Positions 39,963-41,126 of a stretch of 64,000 nt of DNA are shown here, one piece after another. Numbering within the stretch: the first letter of the stretch is position 1; each line of letters starts with the position of its first letter. Source of the DNA: Hydrogenovibrio kuenenii DSM 12350 (GTDB taxonomy: Bacteria; Pseudomonadota; Gammaproteobacteria; Thiomicrospirales; Thiomicrospiraceae); the NCBI RefSeq assembly GCF_000526715.1, contig NZ_JAGP01000001.1, positions 1,240,001-1,304,000 of the forward strand. The letters run 5' to 3'. The position numbers were made by a program, and so were the translations under genes. The notes beneath the pieces were generated by a model. That model did not search any database, was not told where the DNA came from, and saw only the letters and a program-made list of their open reading frames with translations.

Positions 39963-39990
39963 AAAAAAGCCACCGTATAGGTGGCTTTTA
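39963..39990 (-). terminator. Terminator after the parA-partner operon
   Basis: AAAAGCCACC and GGTGGCTTTT pair around a 5-base loop, with a T-run on the minus strand, 23 bases after the small partner gene stop. Confidence 0.85.
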
Positions 39991-40012: not shown

Positions 40013-40291
40013 TTAATCTGGCCAAACACGGCTAGAAGGCATTCTTTTTACTGTTTCTTCTGATTTTTCAACAGCTACTTTAGGGGCAACGGTTTTTTTA
40101 GGTGCCGAACGAGTTGTTGCAGTTTTTCTCGTGGTTGTCTTCGTTCTTGTTGCAGTCGCTTTTGTTGCTTGAGTAGTGCTTGAACCACTTGCTTCATTAG
40201 TTGTTTTTGATTCATCAGTCGCATCACTAGACTGAGCGTTTTTTGCACGACGCAAACTATCCGTCAACTTTGATCCCGTTTGGTTGCTCAT
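40013..40291 (-). CDS. Disordered basic ParA-partner protein (McdB-like ending)
   Basis: A 92-residue protein that is almost all Ser, Thr, Lys, Ala and Arg in the middle (residues 20-70) and should be intrinsically disordered. It has a short helical start (KLTDSLRRAKNAQSS) and a conserved-looking C-terminus, MPSSRVWPD, with Trp at residue 90, third from the end. The ATG overlaps the ParA stop (ATGA) behind GGAGG, so translation is coupled. Such a small disordered basic partner with a C-terminal tryptophan is what is described for McdB proteins that work with McdA ATPases. Assignment is inference. Confidence 0.65.
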   Translation of the reverse strand: MSNQTGSKLTDSLRRAKNAQSSDATDESKTTNEASGSSTTQATKATATRTKTTTRKTATTRSAPKKTVAPKVAVEKSEETVKRMPSSRVWPD

Positions 40292-40920
40292 AGCACCTCC
40301 TCAATTACTTCATCAATTTCTTGCGCTGCGGCTTCGCCACGCTTTCCAACACAATAAACACTTGCTCCATCTACAGCAGCATTACGGTAGATTGCACGAC
40401 GTCGAATCCCTGCCTGCAATGCTGGAATATCAAATTCTGCCAAAGCTTCTTTCATCGCACTCGATAATGCACTTCTAGGTTCGAGTTGATTGACCACAAT
40501 ATAAGGTTTCAACTTTCGGTTTTGCATCTTTGACTGTTCAATTGCTTCAACCAAGCGAATACTGGCCCATAGGTCGACAGGCGATGGTAATACCGGAATC
40601 AAAATGACATCTGACGCTTTCATTGCCAATTGCATCACGCCTGTTTCCAAAGTCGGCGGGCAATCGATCACAATAAAATCGTAATCCAGACTAAAACGTT
40701 TTACTTCCGTTGATAAATTCCCGCCCACTCGAATAACCGATACTGGAAACAATCTGTCTTCTGGTGCCAAACCACACCATTGCCCCGCTGAGCCTTGAGG
40801 ATCGGCATCGATAACCAGTGCTCGCCCTCGTTTGGCTAAGCCTGCGGCAAAATTCATACTTAAGGTGGTTTTGCCAGTTCCGCCCTTCTGGTTGGCGATT
40901 GAAAAAATACGTGCGGGCAT
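40288..40920 (-). CDS. ParA/MinD-family ATPase, McdA-like
   Basis: Cytoplasmic positioning ATPase. The deviant Walker A is seen at FSIANQKGGTGKTTLSMNFA (signature Lys in KGG), Walker A' at ALVIDADPQGSAG and Walker B at FIVIDCPPT. It is 210 residues long, too short for a plasmid ParA with its own DNA-binding N-terminal domain, which matches the MipZ/McdA/ParC-like orphan group. It overlaps the gene for a disordered partner by 4 bases. No plasmid replication or parB/parS neighbour is seen, so cargo other than chromosome is likely; carboxysomes or another assembly are candidates. Confidence 0.88.
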   Translation of the reverse strand: MPARIFSIANQKGGTGKTTLSMNFAAGLAKRGRALVIDADPQGSAGQWCGLAPEDRLFPVSVIRVGGNLSTEVKRFSLDYDFIVIDCPPTLETGVMQLAMKASDVILIPVLPSPVDLWASIRLVEAIEQSKMQNRKLKPYIVVNQLEPRSALSSAMKEALAEFDIPALQAGIRRRAIYRNAAVDGASVYCVGKRGEAAAQEIDEVIEEVL

Positions 40921-41097
40921 TCAGAGCTCTCGGTTTAGGTTGTTATTTAAGATTGCTCTTCGGCACAAGTGCCGAATTCGCAAGGCTAATGATTACAACC
41001 TATTATATTTTTACGAGTGAATGACTATCAGTGTTTTATCCTATAGAGAAGCGTTCTCTCATAGGCTTTGTGAATGGGTTAAACCTTTGACCCAACA

Positions 41098-41126
41098 AAA
41101 AAAAAACCCGCTTGCGCGGGCTTTCA
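41098..41126 (-). terminator. Intrinsic terminator after ybiT
   Basis: AAAGCCCGC and GCGGG-TTT arms pair around a tetraloop, and ten Ts follow on the minus strand. It lies 30 bases past the ybiT stop. Two further short stems (41039-41065 and 41077-41093) lie on its far side toward parA. Confidence 0.88.

Follow-up and report, generated by a model that had tools for sequence, protein, structure and literature searches.

We conclude with high confidence that two small, overlapping genes in the 64,000-nucleotide stretch of Hydrogenovibrio kuenenii DSM 12350 analysed here (the window) form an alpha-type McdAB (Maintenance of carboxysome distribution) pair, and that they serve the alpha-carboxysome whose genes lie 1.12 Mb away. 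A ParA pair that appears orphaned within 64 kb is thus very likely part of its own genome's carboxysome system. The pair and its flanking elements, in window coordinates, are:

40288..40920, minus strand: alpha-McdA, a 210-residue ParA/MinD ATPase with the deviant Walker A motif KGGTGKT and signature Lys12
40013..40291, minus strand: alpha-McdB (type 1, McdA-linked), a 92-residue disordered adaptor with the putative docking motif K8-L9-x3-L13 and the C-terminus R88-V-W90-P-D92
40288..40291, minus strand: ATGA stop/start overlap (translational coupling), read from the sequence, with ribosome-binding-like GAGGAGGT upstream
41002..41031, minus strand: possible sigma-70-like promoter of the pair, CTGATA-18-TATAAT, 10/12, by consensus scan only
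39965..39989, minus strand: terminator-like hairpin 3' of the pair, 10-pair stem and T tail
41102..41125, minus strand: terminator-like hairpin 3' of the upstream ABC ATPase gene, 10-pair stem and T tail

The gene pair and the two ends of the adaptor

In the H. kuenenii genome, mcdAB is located at C1:1280013-1280920. The preliminary description of this DNA had reported two overlapping open reading frames here, and both were found where it placed them: the ATPase stop codon TGA (40290-40288) and the partner's ATG (40291-40289) share four bases, with GAGGAGGT just 5'. This ATGA overlap is kept in 28/28 pairs with a readable partner N-terminus, the window pair included. Because terminator-like hairpins stand on both sides of mcdAB, it looks like its own two-gene unit; a scan of the region returned 4 such hairpins, compared to 2.5 expected from shuffles. 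The sigma-70-like site is a weak candidate for the promoter of mcdAB, as 3 promoter-like sites were observed in the region and 3.5 were expected from shuffles. Seven neighbours were scanned with profiles (M23 peptidase, DNA-alkylation-repair, TfoX_N, YaiI/DUF188, a double ABC ATPase that we read as ABC-F type, rhodanese, and DUF938), and no parB or replication gene is among them, which agrees with what had been claimed from the sequence. Within 1.5-kb flanks, the ABC ATPase gene recurs at 3/30 loci and YaiI at 1/30 (own locus included), and the mcdAB pair is conserved independently of these neighbours.

The ATPase scores 202.9 bits against NCBIfam NF041546 ParA_partition (cut-off 180), and Lys12 of its P-loop (KGGTGKT) is invariant in 11/11 aligned homologues. 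Window-type McdA is present in 30 family genomes including its own, and the other copies are 70–91% identical to the window ATPase. A search by ATPase only, and thus independent of the partner's motif, identified an ORF ending R-x-WPD directly 3' in 29/30 loci; at the 30th (G070), which is left out of type 1 counts, the contig ends 172 bases 3' of the ATPase. It could be argued that the pair is a chromosomal remnant of a ParF/ParG-like partition system from a plasmid or other element, given that a sequence comparison with solved structures places plasmid ParF (4dzz, E 2e-22) and ParA (5u1g, E 2.3e-22) nearest, and that NF041546 is named 'ParA family partition ATPase'. However, the seven scanned neighbours are housekeeping genes with no plasmid or element context, the 30 family genomes with the window-type ATPase are all shell-positive, and the partner has no Pfam domain and is predicted to be unstructured save for one helix, so we consider such an origin extremely improbable. 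A DNA-binding partner had been named beforehand as an outcome that would speak against the McdAB reading; the Pfam/NCBIfam scan of the partner found no DNA-binding domain, its best Pfam match being Glypican (E 0.17), far below cut-off.

The partner of the McdA ends SSRVWPD, with Trp as residue 90 of 92, which confirms from the sequence the RVWPD end and Trp90 reported earlier. It had also been called nearly all Ser/Thr/Lys/Ala/Arg: the bias is real, and 'nearly all' is a little strong for 61/92 residues (66%). Its last residues agree exactly with the published alpha-McdB C-terminus, RVWPD being one form of the alpha-McdB consensus R(V/I)WPD with invariant WPD, as given in the available text of PMC11321042 (Basalla et al.). 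Conservation of the C-terminal Trp motif in relatives, on which the preliminary description had staked its reading, was found in 29/29 orthologous partners: R and WPD are kept in all, and the Trp is preceded by V in 24, by R in 3, and by T in 2. With respect to the alpha-McdB criteria (51–169 residues, disordered, low-complexity, no coiled coil), the partner has 92 residues, the 66% bias and one predicted helix; disorder was judged from composition and from an AlphaFold2 model with one helix at residues 5–22 and no other element (mean pLDDT 63.5, low confidence overall).

At the other end of the protein, KLxx[SG][LIV] is found near the N-terminus in 28/29 pair-linked partners, and the 29th (G064) has masked bases there. 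The invariant columns among 28 aligned partners, whose rows were chosen for the presence of this N-terminal motif (28 of 29 available), are M1, K8, L9, S12, R14, A16, and K17, together with R88, W90, P91, and D92. In H. neapolitanus McdB, a helix is predicted over the first 17 residues, and K7, L8, and I12 have been implicated in McdA binding, according to the available text of a 2025 preprint (PMC12204374). K8, L9, and L13 of the window partner have the same spacing, in a comparison made by published residue positions only, and this likeness suggests that the K8-L9-x3-L13 helix is a putative McdA-docking end.

By analogy with the published H. neapolitanus work, McdA would form ATP-bound dimers that cover the nucleoid, and the C-terminal RVWPD of McdB would bind carboxysomes. 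The N-terminal helix of McdB (K8, L9, L13) would dock on McdA and trigger its release from DNA, and carboxysomes would follow the moving McdA gradient as in a Brownian ratchet, becoming spread through the cell and shared between daughter cells.

The motif was also searched as a DNA pattern. R(V/I)WPD followed by a stop matched in 50/62 family genomes and in 0/62 with the reversed control; the pattern admits TGG and Ser codons and part of the 50 matches are not real, while a match in only a five-codon frame (G067) and a further match in only a seven-codon frame (G071) are uncounted. R and WPD are likewise present at the end of 35 cso-linked copies and 10 partners of divergent McdA, which were found via the motif and hence are no independent test. 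For alpha-mcdB genes away from cso, these results provide a simple rule: an N-terminal K-L-x-x-[ST]-[LIVM] and a terminal R-x-WPD.

The probable distant cargo and the co-occurrence of McdA with shell genes

No shell gene is found in the window, as the preliminary description had stated, and shell genes are present elsewhere in the genome. The genome search that it had proposed, for shell genes and parA, identified a full alpha-carboxysome operon on the same contig at about 148–158 kb, and the window ATPase as the sole NF041546 match above cut-off. The operon contains cbbL, cbbS, csoS2 (NF050161, 1050 bits, cut-off 850), csoSCA (725 bits, cut-off 241), csoS4A, csoS4B, three csoS1, a ferritin-like gene, and a pterin-dehydratase-like gene that by likeness belongs to the acRAF class (see the available text of PMC12918739); a BMC gene in it we read as csoS1D. 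The distance to mcdAB is about 1.12 Mb. Since mcdAB is not adjacent to cso, linkage offers no support in this genome; since a full cso operon is present in the same genome, the cargo is distant and not new. Of the earlier suggestion of a distant or new cargo, the first half therefore fits and the second is unsupported.

On one hand, this distance, and the presence of another RVWPD protein within cso itself, could mean that the pair positions some other cargo and that the carboxysome has only the cso-linked orphan McdB as its adaptor. On the other hand, the window partner itself carries the C-terminal RVWPD, the pair is found in 0/14 genomes without shell genes, and in two family genomes (G011 and G055) a divergent ParA/McdB pair is located inside the cso region, within about 1.3 kb of csoS1. 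We therefore regard another cargo as very unlikely, and the alpha-carboxysome as the cargo of the window pair.

The McdBs of G011 and G055 start MSTLEDKL and MSTLENKL, with L4, K7, L8, and I12 exactly placed. In G055 (L102, G055:C1 2243000-2256000), mcdAB lies between two pairs of csoS1 genes separated by about 7.7 kb, and this is a duplicated or rearranged cso region. Divergent systems are also found in genus g6, where an McdA of 130–141 bits adjoins McdB and, at several of the loci, a csoS1D-like gene lies alongside; three of these loci were read (L155, L157, and L160, all with the P-loop KGGCGKS) and five more were placed by coordinates. The genus g6 McdBs start MVTRRKP or MVTKRTP in place of the K-L motif, and their docking end is thus a different one. 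A reading of genus g6 as McdA-less orphan McdBs was rejected, as the family model found a divergent McdA within about 250 bases of the motif site in 8/9 genomes; the ninth (G081) is 83% complete.

A scan aimed at named relatives, with Walker A and DADPQ patterns, kept 80 loci of distant ParAs (26–46% identity), and an R-x-WPD-ending ORF of at least 40 residues was found in 0/80. Across 369 class genomes, the R(V/I)WPD pattern matched in 128 and the reversed control in about 40, so this tally says little. Thirty of the matched class loci were examined, and ten have an RVWPD or RIWPD protein that begins with a K-L motif; a ParA frame precedes it at nine of these. L343, one of the ten, has Thr at i+5 where a hydrophobic residue is usual. 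Judged by their sequences, these ten loci support the RVWPD/K-L motif beyond the family.

The family comparison comprised 62 genomes, 48 shell-positive and 14 shell-negative, and an McdA was counted if it was of the window type or a ParA adjoining a WPD protein. The sensitive NF041546 search covered the H. kuenenii genome itself, the 16 shell-positive genomes without an ATPase match beside a WPD protein, and all 14 shell-negative genomes. McdA of either kind is present in 40/48 shell-positive and 0/14 shell-negative genomes (Fisher p 1.1e-8), and window-type McdA alone in 30/48 and 0/14 (Fisher p 2.1e-5), with p-values that ignore kinship. The pattern is the same in genomes at least 90% complete (35/42 shell-positive vs. 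0/9 shell-negative). This occurrence only in shell-positive family genomes, together with the C-terminus, the docking spacing, and the gene order and coupling, supports the McdAB-like reading with which the preliminary description began. On a recA tree of 60/62 genomes (without G028 and G068, whose genes are partial), there are at least 8 changes of shell-gene state and at least 11 of McdA; supported branches give 6 independent pairs, of which 1–4 have McdA following the shell genes, and the opposite is never seen. The direction of co-loss is consistent and the test weak, as a sign test on these 6 pairs was not significant (median p 0.25).

McdA was not found in eight of the 48 shell-positive genomes, and four of these (G013, G016, G033, and G058) are in 1–7 contigs and 99–100% complete, so carboxysomes seem able to manage without McdA. 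At least one WPD adaptor ORF is present in 47/48 shell-positive genomes, a count in which the motif itself was the reason for retrieving most loci; the one genome without such an ORF (G020) is split into 160 contigs. Half of the shell-negative genomes (7/14) carry another ParA of about 205–218 residues, with scores of 124–140 bits (divergent McdAs: 130–141). It was not counted as McdA: identity to the window McdA is 25–28% (3/7 compared), and the WPD pattern is unmatched there, with one exception in which TGG replaces the stop.

This different ParA (about 205–218 residues, 122–142 bits to NF041546, below cut-off) was seen in 10/30 genomes searched: L154 (G013), L156 (G063), L161 (G007), L162 (G024), L165 (G023), L166 (G016), L167 (G020; 240 residues from the first start), L353 (G014), L354 (G028), and L355 (G027). 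Seven of these ten genomes are without shell genes, and the NF041546 search did not find this type in H. kuenenii. Three copies that were checked are 53–99% identical to members of the set and 25–28% to the window McdA. In 9/10 loci the gene adjoins one for a secreted-looking Gly/Asn/Tyr-rich protein, which at L156 has a weak, below-cut-off match to the Pfam sulfur-globule family SGP, and a protein with an N-terminal membrane-like segment is nearby in at least six of the ten. It is possibly another positioning system, with sulfur globules as one conceivable cargo; within the collection searched, no paper joined sulfur globule, ParA, and positioning.

The second, cso-linked McdB

A second adaptor is encoded in the cso operon of H. 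kuenenii, as an ORF of 83–85 residues ending FSRRRVWPD, directly 3' of the pterin-dehydratase-like gene:

L022 13204-13461, or 13210-13461 from ATG; ends at C1:156460: cso-linked orphan McdB with RVWPD C-terminus

No parA was found in the 19-kb cso stretch (L022) around it. Between this gene and an RdgB-like gene there is a 137-residue ORF (L022:13670-14083) with no Pfam match at E 1e-5. A cso-linked McdB accompanies window-type McdA in 28 of 30 genomes (no such copy was found in G073 and G075) and occurs in 7 genomes without detected McdA, 35 in total. In 32/35, csoS1 is 1.0–2.1 kb distant in the fetched stretches; in the remaining three the contig ends, and a separate search placed a shell gene no more than about 3 kb off. 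The combination of alpha-mcdAB away from cso and an orphan alpha-mcdB in cso has already been described, with the need for two McdBs left 'to be determined' (2021 review PMC8262871, available text), so the layout is known and not new. One family genome, G062, has two cso loci (L111 and L123) with identical cso-linked McdBs and a single window-type McdA, and one McdA may serve two carboxysome loci there.

The two McdB classes differ at both ends. KLxx[SG][LIV] is found in 0/35 cso-linked copies, and 31/35 have HI[AV][DE] shortly before RVWPD, a block found in 0/29 of the pair-linked class. The published hallmark of the second alpha-McdB, again according to the available text of PMC8262871, is the lack of a charged N-terminus. 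On class average this is true (mean net charge of the first 20 residues +0.7 for cso-linked vs. +3.5 for pair-linked, start codons assumed), but it fails for the H. kuenenii orphan, which has a net +4 (ATG start assumed) where the pair McdB has +3. For this reason, 'type 2' is used here for gene layout only, and the clean class separators are the docking motif and, in 31/35, the HIAD-like block.

We give even credence to a division of work between the two McdBs, in which the window McdB moves carboxysomes with McdA and the cso-linked McdB acts without McdA. An McdA-independent role, for example in condensation, assembly, or shell tuning, is possible and would refine our best explanation; such a role of McdB has been raised before (PMC8406218 and PMC8262871, in the parts available). 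Such a division is consistent with the docking motif being absent from all cso-linked copies, and with five genomes (G013, G029, G033, G058, and G074) that keep the HIAD form of the cso-linked McdB with McdA undetected. However, 28/30 genomes with window-type McdA also carry the cso-linked copy, so a shared function is equally possible.

The HIAD block itself resembles KLADSLR in register, with H at the critical K. The best ungapped mean score (9.4) was reached by 13/2000 column shuffles and by 31/2000 motif-column shuffles, in a test whose rows were aligned on the block and whose comparison was picked after the likeness had been seen. An alignment of the cso-linked class holds 29 HIAD-bearing rows of 31 (of 35 copies), and its invariant H-I-A comes partly from this selection. 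AlphaFold2 predicts only a four-residue helix at the block in the cso-linked McdB, with low confidence. The string HIAD has 0 occurrences in the available text of PMC8262871, PMC11321042, and PMC12204374. The block was also considered as an McdA-dependent trait, and this was not supported, as it is kept in 26/28 copies with window-type McdA and 5/7 without (Fisher p 0.17). Its weak likeness to the McdA-docking motif is a lead and not a result, and the block could equally belong to an enlarged carboxysome-binding end.

A more specific proposal, that HIAD-x-[IV]-K is a relocated, weakened McdA-docking helix and that one McdA serves two adaptors of different strength, seems unlikely to us. Under this proposal, H would replace the critical K7 while both hydrophobic positions are kept, and a weak adaptor site would lie beside the cargo-binding end. 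In H. neapolitanus, the K7A change weakens the coupling of McdB to McdA, and carboxysomes are then positioned but not partitioned, so a balance could be set by having two adaptors. Some genomes of the family have two McdBs, some a single McdB together with McdA, and others an McdB and no detected McdA, a natural variety which makes the published question of why there are two alpha-McdBs testable by comparing deletions.

Comparison with known systems

The window pair is like the TP228-type ParF/ParG system in that, among solved structures, ParF comes nearest to the ATPase in sequence. ParG is the DNA-binding partner of ParF, whereas the window partner has no DNA-binding domain by Pfam/NCBIfam. 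The likeness to H. neapolitanus alpha-McdAB extends over both proteins: a ParA-type ATPase with a small disordered adaptor, an R(V/I)WPD tail whose Trp is the third-last residue, and a predicted N-terminal helix that bears the docking residues K-L-x3-[IL]. The two differ in that a distance of 1.12 Mb separates the window pair from cso, where a second RVWPD protein is encoded, while the H. neapolitanus McdAB genes are near cso. Compared to the alpha-McdAB 'type 2' described in the available text of PMC8262871, the H. kuenenii second copy departs from the hallmark with its net +4 in the first 20 residues, but the arrangement is alike, with mcdAB distant and a second mcdB in cso without mcdA.
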